Shown here: one piece after another, positions 6,001 through 58,964 of the stretch
Position numbering within the stretch: position 1 is the stretch's first letter
How the letters are laid out: every line of letters starts with the position of its first letter
Source: Ilumatobacter fluminis
Lineage (GTDB): Bacteria > Actinomycetota > Acidimicrobiia > Acidimicrobiales > Ilumatobacteraceae
Assembly (NCBI RefSeq): GCF_004364865.1
Contig: NZ_SOAU01000001.1
Location: 4,496,001-4,560,000 of the forward strand
DNA length: 64,000 nucleotides
Reading direction: 5' to 3'
The notes under the pieces: model-generated
The model's database searches: none
What the model was told of the DNA's origin: nothing
Seen by the model: the letters and a program-made list of their open reading frames with translations, nothing else
Program-made: the position numbers and the translations under genes

Positions 6001-9000
6001 CGAACGGCGGGGCGCCCTCGACGACGTCGAAGGTGACGGGGATCTCGATCGGGTCGTAGCCGTCGGCGTCGACCGTGACCGTCGCCGTGTACTGGCCGAC
6101 GGCCAGCCCGGTGGCGTTACCGAGCAGCTGGATCTCGCTCGGCGTCGTCAGGTTCGGGGCGTTGAAGGTCAGCCAGGCCGCGCCGTCGGTGGTGACGGTG
6201 AGCGGCACGTCGAGGCCGCCGGTCTCGACCACGTCGATGAGGGCGCTGTCGCCCTCGTCGACCTCGGCCGACAGGCTCACCGAGGTGGGCGAGGCGGCCA
6301 GCAGGCCGGGCTCACCGAAGTCGGCGGTGACGCTGAAGTCGAGGAACTCGGGGTCGATGCCCGGGGTGTTGCTGCCGTTGCGGTTGGTGGCGAAGATGCC
6401 GGCGAACGACACGGGGCCGCTCTCGCCGTCGGGCAGGATGGCGCCGTCGGTGAACGACGCCGGGATGTCGAGGTGGTCGATCGATGCCTCGACCACCGGC
6501 GTCAGTGCGCCGGAGCCGAGTGCGTAGTTGGCGCTCACCTGATCGCCGGCGATGACCATCTGGAGCGTCACCGGCTCGGTGTCGGCGACGTTGAGCACGT
6601 CGAGACCGTCGGCGGTGTCGCCCGGGTTCGTGACGCCACCGATCTCACGGAGGAGCTGGATGTCGCTCACGCCGGCGGCGGTGTCCTCGGCCAAGACGAG
6701 CTTGACGTAGTTGTCCTCGTCGAGACCGAACCAGATGCCGGCCTGGGCCGAGTTGCCCTCGTTGCGCCAGGCAGCGGGATCCATGGTGGCGGTGATGACG
6801 ACCTCGTCGGCGGCGCCGACGTCGACGCCGACACCGAGCGCGTTGAGCAGCGTGTTATTGTTGCTGCTCGCCGGCGGGTCGAGGTACTGGATGCCCTTGG
6901 TCGCATCGATGGTCAGGCTGCCCGCCGTCGCGTCGAGGTCGAGCAGGCCGGGCTCGTAGCCGGGCACGTTCGGGTTCGACACGGCCGGGTCACCGGTGAG
7001 GCGAGGCTCACTCGGGTCGTCGACCATCGTGAAGCCGATCGACTCGTCGTCACCGTCGACGAGACCGCCTTCGGTGCCGTCGAACGTGAGGGTGAACGGG
7101 AGCGCCACTTCGACGTCGGAGCAGTCGAGGGTCGAAATCGGCGAGCACGGCACGGCCGGCGCCTCGGTCACGTCGAGCGACACGCCGACGGTGAGGTCGG
7201 TGTAGTCGGGTGCCGTGAACTCGACGTCGCCCGACACCTCGCCGACGGCGAGACCGATGGTGTCGACGTCGAAGGTGAACGAACCGGGGGTGTCTTCGGT
7301 GACGGTGAGCCACGACAGCGACTCGGTCGCCGTCAGGGTCGGGGCCGCACCGTCGCCGGTGACGGTCACGGTCGTCGAGTCGGTCTCACCTTCGACCACG
7401 CTGAACTCGACCGGGTCGGGTGAAGCGGTCAGAGTGCCGAGTGGCGCCGACACCGTGAGGGTGACCGGGACGATCAGGTCTTCGTACGACGGATCGCTGA
7501 ACGTGATCTCCGCCGTGTACGTGCCGGGCGCGAGCCCGGCCGAGTTGACGAGAACGGCGATCGTATTGTTTGCGCCGGCGAGCGTCGACAGCCAGTCGGC
7601 GTCATCGACGATGGTGAGCGACGGCGTCTCACCGTCGCCGGTGATGACGGTGCTCGCCACACCCACCGGGTCGTCACCCGGATCGAACGAGAACGACAGC
7701 GACGCAGGGTCGGCGGTCATGATGCCGAGGTCGGGCCGGATAGTGAGCGTCACCGGCACGACGAGGTCGTCGTAACCAGGCGACGAGAACGTCACCGAGG
7801 CGTTGTACGTGCCGGGAGCGAGTCCCACGGCGTTGACCGCGAAACCGGCGACGTCGTCGCCTCCGACGAGCACGCTCAGCCACGGGGTGTCCTCGACGAC
7901 CGAGAGCGTCAGGGGTCCTTCGTCGCCGGTGATCGCCACGTCGGTGATCGAGATGCCGTCTTGGTCGAGCACGAACTCGACGGTCGACGGGTCGGCCGTC
8001 ATCGTCGCGGGCTGTGGCTCGCTCGATGCGACGGCGGTCGCCGAGGGCGACCACGGACCCCAGTCGGTGCCGTCCCAGGCCCGGATGCGGAGCTGATACG
8101 ACGAGCCGGGGTTGAGGTCGGTCACGAGTTGCGACGTGGCGTCACCGTCGCGAACGGTTGCTCCCCACTGCCACGGGCCTCCTTCGATCTTCTTCTGGAT
8201 GCGGTATTCCTGCACCTCGGGTCCGATGAGGGTCGTCGGGGCCTCCCAGGTGAGCAGGATGCTGCCGACCAGCGCGCCCGACGTTGCGGTCGGCTCGGCG
8301 ATCCCGAGCGGCACGCCGAGATCGGCAGGGGTGGGAGCCGTCGCGGTGGCGGCGTCGGAGTAGGGACCCCACGTCGAGCCGCTACGTGCTCGCACTCGGA
8401 ACTGGTACTCGGTGCCGGGAACGAGGTTCTCGACGAGCTTGGAGGTGGCGCCGGCGTCGCGAACCGTCGCTCCCCAGGTCCAGTTCGAGCCATCGAGCGA
8501 CTTCTGAATGCGGTACTCGTCGACCGGGCCGGTCGGCAGTGTCCAGGTCACCAGCACGATGCCCTCGACCGTGCCTGCCTCGGCGTCGACGTCGTTCACC
8601 GCGAGCGGGTCGCCCGGGGTGGGGGTGGCCGAGGCGACGGCCTCGGCCGAGTAGGGGCCCCACTCACCGCCGTCCCAGGCACGGATGCGGAACGTGTACT
8701 CGGCGCCCGGCTCGAGGTTCAGGATGAGCTTCTCGTCCGAGGCACCGTCTCGTTCGGTCGCACCCCAGGTCCAGTTGGCACCACCGTCGATCGACTTCTG
8801 GATGCGGTACTGCACGATGGGCGGGCCGTTGAGCACGGGCGGGATGGTCCACGACGTCAGGACGGTGCCGGGCTCGGTTCCGGGCACGGCGTCGAAGGTC
8901 GGGAAGGCGAGCGGTTCGCCGCCGGGGATCGTCGCTGCGGCGGAAGCCGACTGGGCCGACAGGTTACCGGAGGCGTCTTCCGCGGCGACGGTGAAGCCGT

Positions 9001-11882: not shown

Positions 11883-14800
11883 CTACCGCAAGCGGAACCG
11901 GGCAACGATGATCGAAGCATCGTCGAGCGAGATCACCAGCACGAAGCAACCGGTCTCCTTCGGTGACTTCCAGTTGAGGTGGAAGGCACCGTCGTCGGTG
12001 AGCCGGAGGCTCTGGGTCAGCGTCGTCGATTCACCGCCCAGATCGTTCGTCGCGGGCGAGTCACAGTCGACGGAACGGTAGGCGATCACCGACTCGACGG
12101 CATCGAGATCGGCCACGAGTCCACCATCGGCTCCGTACAGCTCCCACTCCATCGGGTACGTGCGGCCGCGGCGACCGGAGTTGGTGACTTGATCATCTGG
12201 ATCCCACGCGACCACCGGCCCCCCGGTGAACACGCCGTCGGCACGGTTGTAACGCACCTCGTATGTCGCCGATGCGCCGCCCTCGTTGCCGGCGGTGTCG
12301 ACCGCACCGACGCACGACGCGGTGAACGTGCCGACGCCGTGTTCGTTGCCGCCCGTCACGACGAGGCTGGCGTCGGTGGCCACGCCCGACAGGGCATCCG
12401 TCGTCGAGCACGTCGGCGTCGGCGGTGCCGAGACCGCATACGGCCCATCGCCGACGCCGAGCACCGTCACGTCGGGTTCGGTCCGATCGATGTTGACGAC
12501 GACCGTCGTCGAGGCAGCGTTGCCGGCCTCGTCCGTCGCACCGACGGTGTGCTGCTGGTCGGCACCTTCGTCCGTGAAGGTGATCGGCGCAGGGCACGTG
12601 GCGACTCCCGACTCGTCGTCAGCACACTCGAACGAGACCTCGACGTCGCCGGTGTGCCAGCCGGCAGCGTTCGGCTCAGGATCGAACGTCGCCGTGATCG
12701 TCGGCGGGGTGTCGTCACCGAGCTCGACGGAGTACTCGCACTGTGTCGACGCAGGGTTCCCGGCAAGGTCGGTCGCCGTCACGGTGGCGGAGAACGTGCC
12801 GACGGTCGAGGTGTCGAGCGGCACGTCCACCGTCGGCGAAGCCACGCCGCTGAGCGCGTCGTCGACGCTCGCCTCGAGGGTCGACGACGAGCCGCGCCCG
12901 ACGGTGATCGGTGCGCCGCAGGTGATAGCCGGCGGTGTCGTGTCGATGTTGACCGAGGTCGTTGCGTTCACGGTGTTGCCGGCGGTGTCGTTGGCAAAGC
13001 CGATCACCTGCTGATCGGATCCTTCCCCGTCGACGGTGTCGGCATCGGAGCAGAAGGTGACACCGGACAGGTCGTCGACGCAGTCGTACGACACGGTGAC
13101 GGGGCCGTTGTTCCAACCGGCATCGTTCGGCGCCGGCGTGACGATGGCCTCGATCGTCGGGGCCGCTGTGTCGATCTTGACCACGACGACGCCAGGGGCG
13201 CAGTTGCCCGATTCGTCGCAGGAGTCGTTGGATGTGACGGTCGTGAAACCGGTGTCGTTCACGGTGATCGGAGCAGGCTGCGTCGCACCGCTGACCGCGT
13301 CGACGGCGACCCACGACACCGACGCGGGTGTGTTGTTCCAGCCGTCGACGTTCGGTGCGGGGCTGATGGTGCCCGTCACGACCGGCGGCGTGTCGTCGCC
13401 TTCGGTGGATGACTGGATGAGCAGACCGCCCGGGTCGATGATGGTGCCGTTCTCGGCGCCGTCGTCGTCACCGACACCGCCGTCGGTCAACGAGACGATG
13501 ACGTGCGGCCCACGGTTCGGATGGAGCGGGTCGAACTCGACGATGTCGACCAACTCACTCGGGAGCTGATACCAGCCCTTGGTCTCTCGGTCGTACTTGG
13601 CGTAGCCGGTGACGCCTTCGACCGACTCGGTGTAGATGATGACGTCGACCGTCTCGCCGGGGGTGAGTCCGTCGATCCGGAAGTCGAGGAGGCCCTCGGG
13701 CAGCGTGTACGACGAGGGGACGGGTGTCTCCACCGTTACGTCGGCGACCGGGTCGACGGCGCGCACGTTGGTGAAGGTCTTGCCGTTCTCGACCTCGACC
13801 GTCACGTAGTTGCCGGTGTAGGAAGGCAACGACGTCACGTTGTTCTGGTCGTAGTCGGGGAAGCCGTCGTTGTTGCCGTCTCCCTGGTTGGGGGCGAGCG
13901 CTTCGGTGATGTCGTCGACGTTGTCGTCGTCGAACGAGTCGCCGCTCGACCCGACGAACCAGATCCCCGGATCGATCAAGTAGAGGATCGCCCCGGTGTC
14001 GCCGTTGATGTCGATGGTCTCGTTGAACTCCAACCCGTTCTCGAGATTCACCCGCACCTCGACACCCGTCAACCCATCCGGCACCCGGAACACCGGCGAC
14101 GACTCACCCCACGCCATGCCCTCGGCACGCCACACCTCCAACGACGTCCCAGCAACCGGCACACCCACATACGACTCCGTCTCCGTCACCGGATCCCACA
14201 CCCACGGCGCATTCCACGACAACGACACCTCACCCACATTCGACACCGGCGCACCCGCACCATCAACCACCGACACCGTCACATCGACAACATCATCAAC
14301 CGCTGCGTCATACGTCGTCGGACCCGACACCTCCAACGGCACCGTGTCACGAAGCACAAAGTTCCAATCAGCCGCACCCTCACGACCCTGGAACCCGACA
14401 CCACACTCATACGACCCCGGCAACACCTCGAACGAGTACGGCACATACACCACATCCTCGGTCTCGGTCACCGGATCCCACACCCACTCCTCCCGCGCAG
14501 AACCAAACGCCCCACCACACGACACCCAACCCAGCGACGGCACACCCTCCAACAACAACTCACCCGACACCGTCTCGAAGTCGGGAACCTCGATCTCCAA
14601 GAACGCAACACCACCGCCGTTGATGTCGATGGTCTCGTTGAACTCCAACCCGTTCTCGAGATTCACCCGCACCTCGACACCCGTCAACCCATCCGGCACC
14701 CGGAACACCGGCGACGACTCACCCCACGCCATGCCCTCGGCACGCCACACCTCCAACGACGTCCCAGCAACCGGCACACCCACATACGACTCCGTCTCCG

Positions 14801-17800
14801 TCACCGGATCCCACACCCACGGCGCATTCCACGACAACGACACCTCACCCACATTCGACACCGGCGCACCCGCACCATCAACCACCGACACCGTCACATC
14901 GACAACATCATCAACCGCTGCGTCATACGTCGTCGGACCCGACACCTCCAACGGCACCGTGTCACGAAGCACAAAGTTCCAATCAGCCGCACCCTCACGA
15001 CCCTGGAACCCGACACCACACTCATACGACCCCGGCAACACCTCGAACGAGTACGGCACATACACCACATCCTCGGTCTCGGTCACCGGATCCCACACCC
15101 ACTCCTCCCGCGCAGAACCAAACGCCCCACCACACGACACCCAACCCAGCGACGGCACACCCTCCAACAACAACTCACCCGACACCGTCTCGAAGTCGGG
15201 AACCTCGATCTCCAAGAACGCAACACCACCGCCGTTGATGTCGATGGTCTCGTTGAACTCCAACCCGTTCTCGAGATTCACCCGCACCTCGACACCCGTC
15301 AACCCATCCGGCACCCGGAACACCGGCGACGACTCACCCCACGCCATGCCCTCGGCACGCCACACCTCCAACGACGTCCCAGCAACCGGCACACCCACAT
15401 ACGACTCCGTCTCCGTCACCGGATCCCACACCCACGGCGCATTCCACGACAACGACACCTCACCCACATTCGACACCGGCGCACCCGCACCATCAACCAC
15501 CGACACCGTCACATCGACAACATCATCAACCGCTGCGTCATACGTCGTCGGACCCGACACCTCCAACGGCACCGTGTCACGAAGCACAAAGTTCCAATCA
15601 GCCGCACCCTCACGACCCTGGAACCCGACACCACACTCATACGACCCCGGCAACACCTCGAACGAGTACGGCACATACACCACATCCTCGGTCTCGGTCA
15701 CCGGATCCCACACCCACTCCTCCCGCGCAGAACCAAACGCCCCACCACACGACACCCAACCCAGCGACGGCACACCCTCCAACAACAACTCACCCGACAC
15801 CGGGTAGGTGAAGGCGCCGACCTGGATGTTCTTGGTCGTTTCGCCGAAGGGGTAGAACTCGGCGGGGACGAACTCGCCGTCGCCGTTGGGGGCTCCGACG
15901 ACCAGCTCGTAGGTGCCTTCGGCCACGGTCACGATGTAGAAGCCGCTGTTGTCGCTGTAGGTCTCGGCCACCACGGCACCGGCTTCGGTGCGCACTCGCA
16001 CCCGCGCGTTGAACACCGGCTCGTCGGCGTTGTCCGTCACGTAGCCGCTGATCGTGGCCGGCGGACGTGCCTCGAGTTCGAGGTCGAGCGTGGTGACACC
16101 GCTGGTGATCGTCGCCGGCAGATCCGTCGTGCCGAGGTAGACGTTGCTCGGCGGCACCACGTCGAGGGTGTAGTCGCCGGCGGGGAGCCCACGGGTGGCG
16201 TAGTCACCGTTCTCGTCGGAGCAGATCGGTGCGTGGGCGGGGAACACGTCGTCGCCGACGTCGTTGCGCACCGTGACACAGGCTCCTTCGATCGGGAGGA
16301 GGTCGGGTGCGGGCGTGGTGATCGTTCCTTCGATCGTGCCGCCGGGTTCCATGCCGATCTCGATCAGCTCGACGTAGCCCTGCTGCACGTCGAGCGGCAC
16401 TTCGAACACCGAGGCGTAGTCGCCGTCGGGGTCGACGGCGTCGAGCAGCACGGTGGAGAGGGGCAGGTCGTCGCTGAGGTCGATCGCGAACTCGCCGTCG
16501 ATGTCGGTCGAGGTGGTGAGCCACTGCTCGCCATCAGCGGTCTCGACGCGCGCCGCGACCGTGACGCCTTCGATCGGTGTGGTCGTGCCCTGTTCGACGA
16601 CGAGGCCTTCGATGCCGGTGACGACGGGCGCGAGCTCGCCGTCGACCTCGGTGTCGGAACCGGCGACGATCGTCACGGCCGTCGTGGTCAGCGTCTCGTA
16701 GTTGAAGGGCGCCACAAACTCGAGCACGTAGTCGCCGGGCGCGAGGCCGACCGTTTCGAATCGGCCGTCGGTGCCGGTGCACGGCGAGTAGTCGGACGGA
16801 ACGGCGAGCGTCGTGCCGGTCGCGTCGTACACCCGCACGCACGCTCCCTCGAGCGCGAACCCGGTCGACACGTCGGTGACGTCGCCGACGAAGCGGCCGC
16901 CCGCATCCAGGTCGAATCCGATCAGCTCGGTGTAGCCGTGTTGCAGGTACACCTCGTTCATGAGTGAGGCGGCGTGGGTGCCGGTCTCGTCGATCGCGTC
17001 GACGATGAGCGCGTCACCGGTCAGCTCGAACATGGTCAGGTCGAGCTCGTACAGGCCGTCCGCTCCGGTGACGACCTCCTGGCCGAACAGCTGACCGTAC
17101 GCGTCGGTGCCTCGCACCTTGACGCGCACGTCGGGCAGCGGCTGCTCGGTCACCTCGTCGCGAACCAGGCCGGCGATCAGCGTGGGCGGGAACTCGTCGA
17201 GTTGGATCGTCTCGAAGGCGGGGCTGCCGGGTGTGATCGTGAAGGGACCGATCACCCGTGAGTCGAGACCGTCCGGCGCGACGATGCGCGCCTGATACGT
17301 CCCGGCAGGGACGCTGTAGGTGGCGAACGTGCCGGTCTCGTCGGTGCAGGGAGCGTGGTCGGGTCGGAGAACGGGCTCACCCGTCAGGTCTTCGAGCACC
17401 ACGCACGCGCCGGAGACGGGTTCGTTGTCGGGGCCGGTGATCTCGCCTTCGAGGTAGCTGCCTGGCTGCAGCGTGAATCCGATCGCTTCGTCGTAGCCGG
17501 GCTGGAGTGCGATGGTGGCGCCGACGTCGGATGCGAGTGACGGTGAGGTGCTCAGGGCGTCGACGGTGAACGGCTCGCTGCCGAAGCCGATCCCACCGAG
17601 GTACACGGAGTACTCGCCGGGTTCGCCGGTCGGTTCCATGTCGCGGGCTCGGAACTCGCCGTTGCGGTCGGTGGTGTGGGCCACGATTCGCATGTCGTCG
17701 ACGGGGTCGGTGCCGTCGGTGACCGCCGCCGAGATCGTCGTGTTCGGCGGGAGCGGCATGATGACGTCGTACCAGTACTGCTCGCCGGCAACGGCGGTAA

Positions 17801-18531: not shown

Positions 18532-18592
18532 CCGGGTCGGGTGCCAAAGGTGACGGCGAGGTACGAGCAGTTACCGGCGGTCACATGACCCG
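18532..18592. repeat. REP-like imperfect palindrome, mixed arms
   Basis: The left arm GGGTCGGGTG and right arm CACATGACCC enclose GCCAAAGGTGACGG and TTACCGGCGGT. These inner blocks match the repeats flanking the transposase at 56074. The element lies in the gap between the surface-protein gene and the small membrane-protein gene. It has a subfamily-1-like left arm with a subfamily-2-like interior. Confidence 0.75.
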
Positions 18593-19029: not shown

Positions 19030-19091
19030 CGGGTCGGGTGCCGTAGGGAACGATGACGGAGTCGGCGTTTCCGTAGGTCACCCGACCCGGG
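19030..19091. repeat. REP-like palindrome, subfamily 1
   Basis: CGGGTCGGGTG ... GGGAACG ... GGAGTCGGCGTTTCCG ... CACCCGACCCGG. It is very similar to the elements at 43654, 53816 and 58736. It sits between the stop of the phosphatase gene and the start of the next gene on the minus strand. Confidence 0.85.
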
Positions 19092-43641: not shown

Positions 43642-43653
43642 GTTCGAAACCGG

Positions 43654-43820
43654 AGTCGGGTGATCTACGGAAACGTCGACTCCGTCGCCGTTCCCTACGA
43701 CACCCGACCCGGTTTACGCCGTCGCCGTTCCCTACGACACCCGACCCGGTTTACGCCGTCGCCGTTCCCTGCGACACCCGACCCGATTGCGCCTCCGTCG
43801 CCGTTTTCTACGACACCGGA
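43654..43820. repeat. REP-like palindrome with tandem half-units, subfamily 1
   Basis: A full element (GTCGGGTGATCTACGGAAACG ... CGTTCCCTACGACACCCGACCC) at about 43654-43712 is followed by two more right halves (each GCCGTCGCCGTTCCCT followed by CGACACCCGACCC) and a degraded third. It sits in the convergent gap between the coiled-coil and DUF429 genes. Confidence 0.85.
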
Positions 43821-44577: not shown

Positions 44578-44674
44578 GGGGTCAGGTGATCGACGGTAAC
44601 GCCTCGCCCTGGGGGCGAGTCGTCACCTCTGACACCTGACCCCTTGCTTGCGTCACCTTTGACACCTGACCCCC
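44578..44674. repeat. REP-like palindrome plus half-unit, subfamily 2
   Basis: GGGTCAGGTGATCGACGGTAAC followed by GCCTCGCCC, then GGGGCGAGTCGTCACC and TGACACCTGACCC, then a further right half (GCGTCACCTTTGACACCTGACCCCC). It is nearly the same as the element at 56871 next to the transposase. Confidence 0.9.
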
Positions 44675-46730: not shown

Positions 46731-46797
46731 CGGGTCAGGTGATCGCCGGTAACGCCTCGCCCAGGGGGCGAGTCGTCACCTTTGACACCTGACCCGA
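46731..46797. repeat. REP-like palindrome, subfamily 2
   Basis: CGGGTCAGGTGATCGCCGGT, AACGCCTCGCCC, AGGGGGCGAGTCGTCACC and TTTGACACCTGACCCG. A single complete element in the convergent gap between pilD and pilC, where it may also act as a two-way terminator. Confidence 0.9.
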
Positions 46798-51531: not shown

Positions 51532-54474
51532 ATGCGACGCCTCAAGCTTTCTCAGAAGATGCTCGTCGCGGCACTGCCGTTGGTCATCGCCGTTGCCGCC
51601 CTGCTGGCGCTGACGGTCCGAAGCGACCTCGACGACATCAACAGTGCCGAGAACGGCGCCGACCTCGGCGCCATCTGGCAGCCACTCACCGCAGCGCTCA
51701 CCGCGATCGAGAACGAAGCCGACCCGACGATGGCGAGCGACACCGCCGCCCGTCGTGCGACCGACGCCGCCATCAACGAGCTGCGTGACGAAGCGGCCCA
51801 GCTCGGCGCCGCCGAAGCAGCCGGTGACCACATCACCGCCAGTCGCTCCGCCCTGTCGGCCGCCCGGCGCAACCTCGACATGGTGACGATCGCCCCCGAC
51901 CTCCAGGTGGAGATCGACCCGCTCGACGCCTACGCCCAGGCGAGCCGTGAGCTCGTCTCGGTCGGCCAGCTGCTCCCCTCCGAAGCCGGCGACCCGCAGC
52001 TCGGCCGTGAGCTGCTCGCCGTCGTGAAGCTCGCCGAGGCCAAGCTGGCTGCCGACATCATCCTCCACGACGTCGCCACCTGGCAGGCCGACCCGAGCGA
52101 CCTCACCCCGCTCTCCAGCGCCCGCAACCAGTTCGCCGAACTCGAAGCCGTGCTCGGCGAGTTCGAGGCGATCGCCCCCGAAGACTGGCAGGCCACGTTC
52201 CGTGAGTCGGGCTTCACGCCGGCCATCGCCCGTGAACGCTCCAATCTCGACTCGGTGATCCGCTCGGCCCAGGCCGGCGAGAACCCCGACTACAACCCGA
52301 CCGAGTTCGCACAGCTCGTCGAAGGTGGCGTCGCCTACCAGGTGCAGGTCGCCGACTCGATCGTCGAACGTGCCGACGCCGAAGCCGCCGCCACCCGCTC
52401 CGACACCCTCCGCCGCACCGGCATCGTCATCGCCGTCGGCGCCGTCGCCGTGTTCCTCGCCTGGCTGATCGCCCGCTCGATCACGAAGCGGATCAAGGCC
52501 GTCGCCAAGGGCGCCAACCAGGTGACCACCGAGCAGCTGCCCGCACTCGTCACCGCCATCAACGACCCGAAGGGCAAGGGCAAGCTGCCCGAGATCGACC
52601 CGATCCCCGTCAAGGGCAACGACGAACTCAACGAGCTCGCCGAGTCGTTCAACTCGCTGCAGGACACCCTCGTCGACGTCGCCCAGGAGCAGATGGAAGT
52701 GCTCCGCCGTGGCGTGTCCGACATCTTCGTCACCATGGCCCGCCGCAACCGGTCGCTGATCGACCGCCAGCTGGCCATGCTCGACGAGTTCGAAGCCGAG
52801 GTCGACGACCCCGAAGTGCTGGCGAACTACTACCAGCTCGACCACATGGCGACCCGCATGCGCCGCAACTCGGAGTCGCTGCTCGTTCTGGCCAACGCCG
52901 AACCGAAGCGTCGCCGGGTCAAGGCGACCGAGGTCGACGACGTCGTGCGTGCCGCGATCGGCGAGGTCGAGGACTACCGCCGCATCGAGATCGAAGCCCT
53001 CGAGTCGCTCCAGGTGCGCGGCAACGTCGTCGCCGACATCTCACACCTCCTCGCCGAGCTGCTCGACAACGCCACCTCGTTCAGCCCGCCCGACAGCTAC
53101 GTGCGAGTCGGCGGCCGCCTCACCGAGAACGGCTACATGATCCGCATCCTCGACGGCGGCGTCGGCATCGGCTCCGACCGCCTCAAGCAGCTCAACGAAC
53201 TGCTGCGTGACCCGCCGATCGTCGGTCTGTCGGTCGAGTCGACGCTCGGCATGTCGGTCGTGTCGCTGCTGGCGAACAAGCACAACATCGGCGTCACCCT
53301 CGCCCCGGGCAACCCGGGCCTGATCGTCGACGTGCTCATCCCGCCGGCCCTGTTCGGCCCGATCGACGCCGACCAGCCGATGCCCGCCGCTGCGACCGCT
53401 GCTGGTGACGTGCCGACGCTGAACGGTGTCGCCCCGACGCTCGACGCCGCTGCCGTGCCGACCCCCGACGCCGCCGAGATCGAGCGGATGGTCGCCTGGG
53501 ACGACACCACCGGCGCCCCCGTCGACGAGTCGTTCGAACCGGCCGAGCCGCTCGAGCCCGTCACCCACGACGAGGCCCCGGTCGCCGAACCGATCAACGA
53601 GACGCCATCCGACATCTACGACCCCGACGACGAGCGCCCCGTGGCCGCCGCCGACTGGCGTGCGATGTCGCTCAACCTCGCCGCCTTCCAGAGCGGCATG
53701 GCCGCCGGCTCCAACAACGGCGACGAGCAGCAGAACACGGACGAAATCGCGGGAGACTCCGACCACGTCGCCGACGACGCCGTCGTGGCGGAGCCCCCCT
53801 CGACCCCGGCGGGAACCGGGTCGGGTGTCGAAGGAACCGACAACGGAGTCGACGTTTCCGACGATCTCCCGACCCGGGAAACCGAGACCGACGAGCAGGC
53901 GCCCGCGCCGATGCTCGGCGGCCTCGACATCGCCGACCTCGCGGCACAGGTGGGAGCCGACGAGTCGACCGAGGCACCGGCACCCCAGCTCGGTGGCCTC
54001 ACGTTCGATGCGCCGACCCTGCCGCCCCCGACGGCGGCACCGACCGGAGAATTCGATGTCCCACCAGCCCCGCCCAACACCGCAATGAGCCCGTCGCAGC
54101 GGCCGGTCGCCCCGACCACCGCCCATGGGGCTCCCGAACCGGCTCCCCGCGACCTCGCGCCGAGCCTCCCGACCCGGACCCCGGGTCAAGGCCCCGACGG
54201 TGGCCCCGACCGTCTCTCCGCCAGCCTCGACGCTGCGGCGAACAACCAGCCGTCCGCCTCGTCGAACGGCGCCCTGCCGACCCGCACCCGGGTCGGTGAC
54301 CCCGTCGCCCCGGTCGAGGAACCCCTCGCCACGGCCGCCGGCGGCAACCCGGACGCACTCCGCGACCGGCTCCGTGCCTTCCAGACCGAATTCCGCTCGG
54401 CACTCGGCACCGACTCCATCACCGACGACCAGCCCGCTGGTCACGACCATCCTGATCTCGGAGGGGATCGCTGA
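51532..54474 (+). CDS. cvnA: Conservon sensor kinase-like protein (CvnA type)
   Basis: 980 residues from the ATG at 51532; the open frame starts 150 bp upstream. TM1 (LVAALPLVIAVAALLAL), an all-helical extracytoplasmic sensor of about 260 residues resembling nitrate/nitrite-sensing (NIT) domains, TM2 (GIVIAVGAVAVFLAWLIA, about 295-315), HAMP, then the dimerisation segment (LDHMATRMRRN) and HATPase at about 500-605 (LLAELLDNATSFSPP; ILDGGVGIGSD; STLGMSVVSLLA). A 370-residue disordered Pro/Ala/Asp-rich tail follows and includes a REP-derived stretch. In Streptomyces conservons the partner proteins associate with this kinase at the membrane. The first gene of the operon; its stop overlaps the next start (TGATG). 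Confidence 0.92.
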   Translation: MRRLKLSQKMLVAALPLVIAVAALLALTVRSDLDDINSAENGADLGAIWQPLTAALTAIENEADPTMASDTAARRATDAAINELRDEAAQLGAAEAAGDHITASRSALSAARRNLDMVTIAPDLQVEIDPLDAYAQASRELVSVGQLLPSEAGDPQLGRELLAVVKLAEAKLAADIILHDVATWQADPSDLTPLSSARNQFAELEAVLGEFEAIAPEDWQATFRESGFTPAIARERSNLDSVIRSAQAGENPDYNPTEFAQLVEGGVAYQVQVADSIVERADAEAAATRSDTLRRTGIVIAVGAVAVFLAWLIARSITKRIKAVAKGANQVTTEQLPALVTAINDPKGKGKLPEIDPIPVKGNDELNELAESFNSLQDTLVDVAQEQMEVLRRGVSDIFVTMARRNRSLIDRQLAMLDEFEAEVDDPEVLANYYQLDHMATRMRRNSESLLVLANAEPKRRRVKATEVDDVVRAAIGEVEDYRRIEIEALESLQVRGNVVADISHLLAELLDNATSFSPPDSYVRVGGRLTENGYMIRILDGGVGIGSDRLKQLNELLRDPPIVGLSVESTLGMSVVSLLANKHNIGVTLAPGNPGLIVDVLIPPALFGPIDADQPMPAAATAAGDVPTLNGVAPTLDAAAVPTPDAAEIERMVAWDDTTGAPVDESFEPAEPLEPVTHDEAPVAEPINETPSDIYDPDDERPVAAADWRAMSLNLAAFQSGMAAGSNNGDEQQNTDEIAGDSDHVADDAVVAEPPSTPAGTGSGVEGTDNGVDVSDDLPTRETETDEQAPAPMLGGLDIADLAAQVGADESTEAPAPQLGGLTFDAPTLPPPTAAPTGEFDVPPAPPNTAMSPSQRPVAPTTAHGAPEPAPRDLAPSLPTRTPGQGPDGGPDRLSASLDAAANNQPSASSNGALPTRTRVGDPVAPVEEPLATAAGGNPDALRDRLRAFQTEFRSALGTDSITDDQPAGHDHPDLGGDR
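53816..53878 (+). repeat. REP-like palindrome (subfamily 1) in frame within the kinase gene
   Basis: CCGGGTCGGGTG ... GGAACCG ... CGGAGTCGACGTTTCCGACG ... CCCGACCCGGG. It aligns well with the intergenic element at 19030. It is translated as T-G-S-G-V-E-G-T-D-N-G-V-D-V-S-D-D-L-P-T inside the disordered tail. Confidence 0.8.
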
Positions 54475-55882: not shown

Positions 55883-56021
55883 CGGGTCAGGTGCCAGAGG
55901 TGACGACTCGCCAAGTTCCGGGTCAGGTGCCAGAGGTGACGACTCGCCAAGTTCCGGGTCAGGTGCCAAAGGTGACGCCTCGCCCCCAGGGCGAGGCGTT
56001 ACCGGCGGTCACCTGACCCGG
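55883..56021. repeat. Left REP array: two 36-bp half-units plus one full palindrome
   Basis: Copies of GGGTCAGGTGCCA(G/A)AGGTGACG start at 55884, 55920 and 55956 (36-bp period). Only the third copy continues into the complementary half (GGCGAGGCGTTACCGGCG then GTCACCTGACCCGG). It lies just after the GTPase stop and may also terminate the conservon transcript. Confidence 0.95.
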
Positions 56022-56073
56022 GATCGGTCAGTAACCAAACAGCGTTGTCACACCCCCGGCTCACACTGGGCCC

Positions 56074-56892
56074 ATGGCACGCACCGGCAGATTCAGCCCG
56101 ACCGGCTGGTTCCACATCATGAACCGCGGCGTCGCGTCACAACCCGTCGTTCGCGACGACGCCGACCGACGCAAACTCCTGGCCACACTCGAGATGGCGC
56201 TGGCGCAGACCGAGGCCTCCGTTCACGCCTACTGCGTGATGACGAACCACTACCACTTCATCGTCGAAGCGAGCGCCGACCAGCTCGGTCGCCTGATGAA
56301 GGGCTTCGCTCAGCGATACAGCCAGGCGTTCAACAAGCGGCACGGGCGCATCGGACCGGTCTTCGCCGGGCGATACCACGACGTCCCGATCGCCGGCGAC
56401 GTGCAGCTGATCGCGACGATTCGCTACGTCGCACTGAATCCTGTCGCGATCGACCGATACGACATCGACCGCTACGGCTGGTCGAGCCATGGAGCGATCG
56501 TCACCGGCCACCAGCCGCCGTGGCTGACCAGCGACGTGGTCGACTTGTTCGGCGGCAGCGACGGATACCGGCGGTTCATCGACGACGGTCGGAGTGACGC
56601 CGAGCAGATCGTCGAGATGGCGCGACTCGCCATCGACGAGGTACGCGGGATGCGATCATCGCGTGATCGAGACGTACGCGACATCGTGCTGCTGCTCGCC
56701 GACCGTGCCGAGGCGACGTTGTCGCAGACCTTGATCCGCGAGCTCGGGTTCGCGTCTGCCGAGAACGAGCGAACGGCGCGACATCGCGCCCGGCGTCGGA
56801 CGGACGAGTTGGGCCCGGTGGTCGATCGTCTCCGAGCCGTGCTCGAGTACTCGACCGAGGTTGCCGGTCCGGGGTCAGGTGATCGCCGGTAA
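56074..56892 (+). CDS. REP-associated tyrosine transposase (RAYT, Y1_Tnp)
   Basis: 272 residues. Family signs: early GWFHIMNRGV, the HUH metal site as H59-Y60-H61 in MTNHYHFIVEA, the likely nucleophile Y82 in QRYSQAFNKRHGR, then GPVFAGRYHDVPI and IRYVALNPV. The last 100 residues form an additional helical region. These enzymes cut and join single-stranded REP hairpins and are usually single-copy and vertically kept. The final codons (G-P-G-S-G-D-R-R-stop) are encoded by the left arm of the downstream REP element. No Shine-Dalgarno sequence is visible before the ATG. Confidence 0.93.
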   Translation: MARTGRFSPTGWFHIMNRGVASQPVVRDDADRRKLLATLEMALAQTEASVHAYCVMTNHYHFIVEASADQLGRLMKGFAQRYSQAFNKRHGRIGPVFAGRYHDVPIAGDVQLIATIRYVALNPVAIDRYDIDRYGWSSHGAIVTGHQPPWLTSDVVDLFGGSDGYRRFIDDGRSDAEQIVEMARLAIDEVRGMRSSRDRDVRDIVLLLADRAEATLSQTLIRELGFASAENERTARHRARRRTDELGPVVDRLRAVLEYSTEVAGPGSGDRR

Positions 56893-57032
56893 CGCCTCGC
56901 CCAGAGGGCGAGTCGTCACCTCTGACACCTGACCCCCATGCGAGTCGTCACCTCTGACACCTGACCCCCATGCGAGGCGTCACCTCTGACACCTGACCCC
57001 CATGCGAGTCGTCACCTCTGACACCTGACCCC
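56871..57032. repeat. Right REP array: one full palindrome plus three 32-bp half-units
   Basis: A full element (GGGTCAGGTGATCGCCGGTA ... TGACACCTGACCC) at 56871-56935 overlaps the RAYT stop codon. The right arm CACCTGACCC recurs at 56926, 56958, 56990 and 57022, exactly 32 bp apart, each unit reading CATGCGAGTCGTCACC then TCTGACACCTGACCCC. Confidence 0.95.
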
Positions 57033-58735: not shown

Positions 58736-58964
58736 TCGGGTCGGGTGTCGTACGGAACGGCGAGGCGAGCCCCACCGGGTCGGGTGTCGTACGGAACGAC
58801 GAGGCGCAGCCGAGGCGTTTCGGGAGATCACCCGACCCGACGATCGGGTTCGCACCGTCGCCACCGGAGTCGGGTGATCTCCGGAAACGTCGACTCCGTC
58901 GCCGTTCCCTGCGACACCCGACCCGGTTCCTTTCCGTCGCCGTTCCCTGCGACACCCGACCCCG
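58736..58964. repeat. REP-like cluster, subfamily 1 (two dimeric elements)
   Basis: Two left halves (GGGTCGGGTGTCGTACGGAA, starting near 58738 and 58777) run into a right arm GATCACCCGACCC at about 58838. A full element at 58864-58925 (AGTCGGGTGATCTCCGGAAA ... CACCCGACCC) and an extra right half to 58964 follow. It fills the gap between the two binding-protein genes. Confidence 0.85.

Follow-up and report, generated by a model that had tools for sequence, protein, structure and literature searches.

What kind of system is a transposase gene that lies between mirrored arrays of palindromes in an actinobacterium, and do the palindromes belong to the enzyme or to its host? These questions are raised by a locus in a 64,000-nt stretch of the Ilumatobacter fluminis genome (the window), in which a preliminary description had recognised a complete REP/RAYT system with related palindromes dispersed nearby. 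Literature searches, which also covered actinobacterial RAYTs, found no published report of such a system in this host.

The locus and the hairpins of the window

The arrangement first described was confirmed: the transposase gene at 56074 stands between two 64-nt hairpins, with arrays of half-units mirrored outside them. The features of the window are as follows, G004 being a sister genome.

55884-55955, plus strand: two tandem half-units (solo inverted-repeat arms) of 36 nt each, from 55884 and 55920
55956-56019, plus strand: upstream 64-nt hairpin; 10+2 bp outer stem, internal loop, 7-bp inner stem (15 bp here)
56074-56892, plus strand: predicted Y1/HuH transposase, 272 aa; H59-Y-H61, Y118...N122 and a C-terminal helical extension; the only PF01797 match of the genome
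56872-56935, minus strand: downstream hairpin of 64 nt, inverted relative to the upstream one and covering the final 21 nt of the transposase ORF
56936-57031, minus strand: three tandem half-units with a 32-nt period, mirroring the upstream array
18534-18591, plus strand: dispersed 58-nt hairpin (covariance model)
19031-19088, plus strand: dispersed 58-nt hairpin of the GGGTCGGGTG subfamily (covariance model, folding)
43653-43784, minus strand: 58-nt hairpin (43653-43710) with an array of GGGTCGGGTG half-units
44579-44672, minus strand: dispersed 64-nt hairpin with one half-unit (covariance model, folding)
46732-46795, minus strand: dispersed 64-nt hairpin, also present at the orthologous site in G004, there with one extra half-unit
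53818-53875, plus strand: weaker hairpin (52 bits) within the called gene 51559-54474; 66.9 bits at the aligned place in G004 (L294:55-112)
58738-58962, minus strand: composite of two GGGTCGGGTG hairpins (58777-58838 and 58867-58924) with half-units on either side

The 72-nt arms on either side of the transposase gene are 89% complementary, and the inverted repeats of the flanks score 82.5, where shuffles reach 15 at most. The downstream arms read GGGGTCAG and the upstream arms CGGGTCAG, and the flank test did not flag the window for a GGGGWSAS-type motif. With at most one mismatch, GGGTCAGGTG occurs 34 times in the 64-kb window, compared with a mean of 6.4 and a largest value of 13 in 100 shuffles. 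Related elements had been reported at 18532, 44578, 46731 and further sites; the dispersed sites are real, since the covariance model recovers ten window hairpins (18534, 19031, 43653, 44579, 46732, 53818, 55956, 56872, 58777 and 58867), that at 53818 lying within a gene. When six hairpins were folded as single-stranded DNA, each beat all 200 of its shuffles, with z between -3.9 and -8.4.

The covariance model derives from 38 copies and describes a 12-bp outer stem, interrupted by a one-base bulge, followed by an internal loop and an inner stem of 7 bp. Because the pattern used to choose the copies already fixes parts of the outer arms on both sides, pairing is tested more fairly by the inner stem. 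Across these copies 99% of cells are paired and four pairs have changed on both sides, whereas slid controls drop to 22-51%; pair 11-54 is U-A in 20 copies and C-G in 18. Hairpins take forms of ~58, 62 and 64 nt and fall into two subfamilies, GGGTCAGGTG and GGGTCGGGTG. Each consists of an arm starting GGGTCAGG and its inverted copy; this motif also occurs in the repeats that flank many relatives from other phyla. Among the matches listed for the whole genome (150 hairpins, or 149 once one lacking a flank is set aside), the base preceding the hairpin is C in 113/149 and G in 30/149, and an additional arm lies within 60 nt outside the hairpin in 37/149.

The transposase

The ORF matches the Pfam profile PF01797 at E 3.8e-7, above the family cutoff, and this being the one such match, the transposase is single-copy in the I. 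fluminis genome (4,775,416 bp, one contig). H59, H61, Y118 and N122 are invariant both in the family alignment (A2) and in that of wider relatives. The predicted structure of the 272-aa protein (pLDDT 85.5) has the REP transposase 4er8 as its top Foldseek match (E 7.2e-7) and places helices at 175-263. A Pfam search found no C-terminal HTH in the window protein; in the 61-member A3 alignment, HTH_23 was found in 21 members, HTH_28 in 11 and Bac_DnaA_C in 9. From its sequence and predicted fold, the ORF is assigned as an IS200-like (PF01797) Y1/HuH transposase with a putative catalytic role. The profile for REP-associated tyrosine transposases, NF047646, gave 53.4 bits, below its cutoff of 80. 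By eye, the adjoining called genes are small GTPase-like and substrate-binding-protein-like, not tnpB.

Relation to known systems

The comparisons in this section rest on the available portions of the papers cited. The system cannot be called a strict RAYT of groups 2/3, as a GTAG foot occurs within 8 nt of either foot in 0/149 hairpins among the matches listed (GT[AG]G variants uncounted) and the NF047646 score falls short. What survives of the earlier REP/RAYT assignment is a resident transposase with its own dispersed palindromes; the classical GTAG type does not, protein and ends alike pointing to the TIRYT branch. The form is nevertheless that of a REPIN, with two inverted units, a hairpin, intergenic dispersal and a linked transposase. 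In common with REPINs and group 2/3 RAYTs (PMC3116915, PMC8266576, PMC8049555), the transposase is single-copy and the hairpins are inverted doublets, mostly intergenic, vertically kept and with solo units beside them. Unlike REPINs, the hairpins lack a GTAG foot, the ends and protein point to another branch, and the hairpin is itself doubled in composites. As a working model, REPINs come closest (PMC3116915).

TIRYTs with GGGGWSAS repeats, some of them self-complementary and dispersed, were described in 2013 (Di Nocera et al., PMC3733652). The present system resembles these TIRtrons/TIRYTs in having a Y1 transposase and long flanking inverted repeats unrelated to GTAG REPs, some TIRs of the published systems being GGGGWSAS. 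A further likeness is that TIRtron repeats are dispersed singly, as dimers or in groups, those of Stenotrophomonas ORF 1152 being self-complementary (PMC3733652). The I. fluminis system differs in its family-wide palindromic ends, its two-hairpin composites with a conserved linker, and its oriC-proximal, apparently replication-oriented placement. The main text of PMC3733652, so far as available, offered no actinobacterial TIRYT example.

In the classification of Quentin et al. (2018, PMC6006769), 20 of the 26 described TIRYTs belong to subclass 2.1, which corresponds to RAYT group 1 and is the second largest Y1 subclass, behind the insertion-sequence class. HTH_23, HTH_28 and Bac_DnaA_C are named there as its C-terminal types. 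The window protein and its relatives share with this subclass the NH[YF]H and Y---NP motifs, an SS after the core and a long C-terminal extension (with HTH types in relatives). However, in the available part of that survey subclass 2.1 shows no REP-like sequences near its genes and Actinobacteridae have only subclass 1.1, whereas the present genes have palindromes in their flanks, with further copies dispersed. IS608 and ISDra2 (IS200/IS605) share the HuH fold, and their transposition is single-stranded and fork-linked (PMC6006769); the present system differs from them in its one gene copy and in neighbours that, by eye, are not tnpB-like.

Flanking inverted repeats unrelated to GTAG REPs are the mark of TIRYTs and subclass 2.1, and they are found here; by protein sequence and ends, the most likely branch is TIRYT / RAYT group 1 / TnpA subclass 2.1. 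Counting against this assignment are the negative Pfam result for a C-terminal HTH in the window protein, its long branch in the tree described below, and upstream arms that read CGGGTCAG and not GGGGTCAG. We consider it probable that this is a resident Y1/HuH system with one transposase copy, belonging most likely to the TIRYT branch, and that its terminal inverted repeats turned palindromic. In short, an actinobacterium here carries a TIRYT-like system whose ends are palindromic and REPIN-like.

Number and position of hairpins in the genome

The repeats extend well beyond the window. The pattern finds 103 sites in the whole genome, compared with none for a reversed-pattern control, and the covariance search finds at least 150 hairpins (150/150 scored candidates pass E 1e-4), forming 104 clusters among the matches listed; the window hairpins at 19031 and 53818 are absent from these 150. 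No hairpin match occurred in 19 four-kb genome stretches taken at round coordinates (L145-L163). In agreement with the intergenic placement first proposed, 96 of the 104 clusters among the matches listed are clear of called genes, and the overlapping eight include the hairpin at the transposase 3' end.

Convergent gaps account for 34/101 gaps with an element versus 32/262 without (p 7e-6), the background gaps being drawn from the same stretches, mostly chosen around elements. In tandem gaps, 44/55 clusters lie closer to the 3' end of the upstream gene (median 24 vs 93 nt). Both biases would suit hairpins that are host elements under selection (mRNA-end, nucleoid or supercoiling sites), with the transposase a guest or a spent ancient source. 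This alternative is unlikely, as a position at gene ends is equally expected from selection against in-gene insertion, and a run of four T lies within 12 nt of the hairpin in 0/149 cases among the matches listed. The last result also lends no support to the earlier suggestion that the repeats seed mRNA-end structures.

Clusters gather near the origin, with 55/104 among the matches listed lying within 500 kb of oriC against 21.8 expected; oriC was placed by five parS-like sites at 4.675 Mb and by dnaA-dnaN with DnaA boxes at 4.68 Mb. Within the same distance lie 25/74 clusters of the window's hairpin family (A) versus 6/52 loci of a second repeat family, B (p 0.006), in a comparison limited to the stretch of genome listed for both families, family B being taken from the matches listed and grouped by hand. 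As a marker of the replication arms, strand-corrected GC skew was weak and changed sign, leaving the arms unconfirmed by skew.

Composites and replication

In a composite, a 58-nt hairpin is joined by a conserved linker of 53-56 nt (in the second subfamily, 18-29 nt) to a 62- or 64-nt hairpin in the opposite orientation. With the terminus set as the point opposite oriC to divide the arms, composites of defined direction are '+' in 19/19 cases on the right arm, and '-' in 13 and '+' in 9 on the left (Fisher p 3e-5). Overall, 32/41 are fork-directed (19/19 right, 13/22 left), the 41 leaving out two composites whose hairpins share a length class and another, at 2796178, that is inverted in the opposite sense. 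In tandem contexts direction shows no tie to gene strand (9 with, 13 against), and unpaired hairpins showed no orientation bias. Within 250 kb of oriC, the left-arm composites have the reverse direction, 6 to 1. That composites point along replication is graded suggestive, because merging same-orientation composites within 50 kb weakens p to 0.018. Tandem REP arrays are noted to be oppositely oriented on the two sides of the genome in the REPIN study (PMC3116915). The system is probably fork-linked. An origin moved to the left, which would raise co-orientation, was rejected, as parS and dnaA agree on 4.68 Mb.

Sister genomes

A transposase homologue was found at E 1e-3 in 10/41 genomes including I. 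fluminis, the other matches being 29-39% identical. Window-type hairpins occur in 4/41, all of one genus: I. fluminis, G003 (86), G004 (69) and G005 (4); none was found in the other 37, though the filters lose weak matches. Only distant transposase homologues were detected in G003, G004 and G005. In G002, G006, G008 and G009 the gene neighbouring the window transposase is present, no window-type transposase follows it, and the sequence that comes next gave no significant hairpin match (best score at these loci 13.4 bits, E 0.25, in G006 and outside the stretch following the neighbour). The model found no hairpin in these four genomes as a whole, and three of the four carry distant homologues elsewhere. 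At 1e-40 the neighbouring gene was not found in G001, G003, G005 or G007. Hairpin number had been predicted to track the transposase, and this holds in part: G002, G006, G008 and G009 lack both at the syntenic place, whereas the 86 and 69 hairpins of G003 and G004 accompany no detected close homologue and family B has no cognate enzyme in I. fluminis.

In G004 the neighbouring gene (94% identical) is followed directly by family A half-units; the locus ends 101 nt past the match, where 1,500 nt were sought, and a partial hairpin match runs off the contig end. The G004 transposase gene may thus be unassembled at this syntenic contig end, and in G003, as in G004, the gene could be merely unassembled. 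In G003, 13 of 50 listed hairpin matches start within 150 nt of the first base of a contig, as would happen if assemblies tend to break at repeats. L037 (G004:C46), the sole Y1 transposase detected in G004, contains a single in-frame TAG, and its flanks hold yet another type of palindrome.

Of 18 distinct sister hairpin loci, 14 map onto I. fluminis stretches, which amount to ~14% of the genome and were mostly chosen around its own repeats, so that sites absent from I. fluminis are barely detectable. At 8/8 aligned sites the sister species has a hairpin at the corresponding place, and no transposition event was seen; activity may therefore be old, and at the sites seen the hairpins are apparently inherited vertically. 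This makes it very improbable that the locus is a recent invader, a classical IS200/IS605-like element with MITE derivatives. Such an element would fit the composites, whose hairpin, short linker and inverted hairpin give them ends like those of the transposase locus, but the transposase is present in a single copy and its identity to the relatives found is at most 40%.

The shared sites are not static. At the orthologous site L055 the two species differ by a compensatory change of A-T to G-C, and sharing between species with compensatory changes would also be expected of host elements. The subfamily differs at L061 and L066, with two hairpins in the sister and one in I. fluminis at L061, and half-unit number differs at L058, L060 and L064. 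These differences, together with a tandem array of family B at 4.355 Mb, are what multiplication by recombination, slippage and gene conversion among repeats would produce, the transposase playing no part today. As a full account this is distinctly improbable, more so than a host function, as recombination alone leaves unexplained the ~100 dispersed loci, the family-wide cognate flanks and the arm-wise orientation of composites.

In two alignments (L075 against I. fluminis 83237-85321 and L073 against 460631-463196) the sisters lack ~2.1 and 2.6 kb that lie between two repeats in I. fluminis, as if the repeats had recombined.

Family B repeats

Family B consists of AGAAGGTGCCTGACCCC in inverted pairs ~53 nt apart. 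Examples on the I. fluminis contig (G000:C1) are as follows.

6277-6346: family B repeats (L144)
1382230-1382300: family B repeats (L192)
4355453-4356114: family B repeats (L178)

There are 141 family B half-sites in I. fluminis, 150 in G003 and 45 in G004, and none in seven other members of the genus. No cognate transposase was found in the I. fluminis genome, and G003 has one (L038). In the 29 units read, the ends fit the search pattern and the ~36 nt spacers are unrelated between loci, so that the family cannot serve as a second test of orientation; the spacers do agree at one orthologous site, where the stem changes are compensatory. A transposase remnant at 4.355 Mb was ruled out, only a tandem array being present. 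The persistence of family B, and perhaps of a family in G016, in the absence of a cognate transposase would accord with host elements. It suggests that repeats may outlive their transposase, a point relevant to any host function of the hairpins.

Relatives and their cognate repeats

By eye, palindromes, inverted repeats or arrays were seen in the flanks of 16 homologues in relatives. Against shuffles in two-base blocks, 13/14 tested loci of the host family, that of the window among them, have inverted repeats that match significantly between the two flanks, and in 12 these are palindromic; L047 failed despite arrays seen by eye, and L040 was left out for its short flank. The A2 alignment omits L037, for its one in-frame stop, and L039, whose late part is out of frame by eye. 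With A2, at least 461 wider relatives were found; of the best 80, 62 were read for ORFs, 60 aligned and 58 tested (L213 and L233 being too short for the flank test). Among these 58, from many phyla, 50 have significant flanking inverted repeats but 3 are palindromic, and GGGTCAG occurs in 35 of the 50. Four of the best 80 are named as Acidimicrobiales or Acidimicrobiia MAGs. No close protein relative was met in a contig scan that reaches only close ones and excludes own or very near genomes and contigs under 3 kb.

A pattern derived from the flanks of L032 (G002) and L033 (G008) finds 42 sites in G002 and 51 in G008, including sites beside those genes, and the copies have genome-specific middles resembling those of the flanks. 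Elsewhere it finds 47 sites in G016 and one in G006, and none in the other 37/41 genomes. This restriction, and the change of hairpin sequence from transposase to transposase within the host family, argue against host elements. G016 has two detected homologues with related, non-matching palindromes, which counts against strict tracking of repeats with transposase.

In a tree of the sequences found here, midpoint-rooted and with bootstrap not settled, a branch (99/84) sets apart the 15 family proteins together with three from Acidimicrobiia MAGs, with L213 (Acidimicrobiales) elsewhere; the window protein is a long branch of unsure placement.

Several further loci were observed in passing. The 47 palindromes of G016 (GTTAC...GTGCCWGGCAC, e.g. 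C72:163247-163277) are unlike the flanks of either homologue and form a second possible orphan family. G021, a one-contig genome of the family, carries five different homologues (L036, L044-L047), each with its own flanking repeats by eye. In G009, a one-contig genome without a PF01797 match, the neighbouring gene is followed by what appears by eye to be a GTGTCGCG...CGCGACAC repeat array (L297).

A proposed model for the spread of the hairpins

Under the reading of a resident system with palindromic terminal repeats, the enzyme would recognise the single-stranded hairpin at replication forks and cut its foot through a tyrosine-DNA link. Hairpins and two-hairpin composites would be copied or moved into gaps behind genes, with in-gene insertions presumably removed by selection. 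The half-units may be products or remnants of enzyme activity, or of slippage, and the copies would now be mostly inherited, their pairing maintained. A more tentative proposal, somewhat more doubtful than not, is that an Acidimicrobiia clade of TIRYTs (group 1) made plain terminal repeats palindromic and so gained genome-filling, fork-inserted hairpins, the direction of a composite recording the replication arm of its insertion. If so, the hairpin family would amount to a natural archive of single-stranded transposition at replication forks. The roughly dozen enzyme-hairpin pairs in the host family open to direct test the rules of recognition, the change from plain to palindromic ends and insertion coupled to the fork.

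Elsewhere in the window, at 14226-15465, lie near-identical DNA repeats with a 615-nt period.
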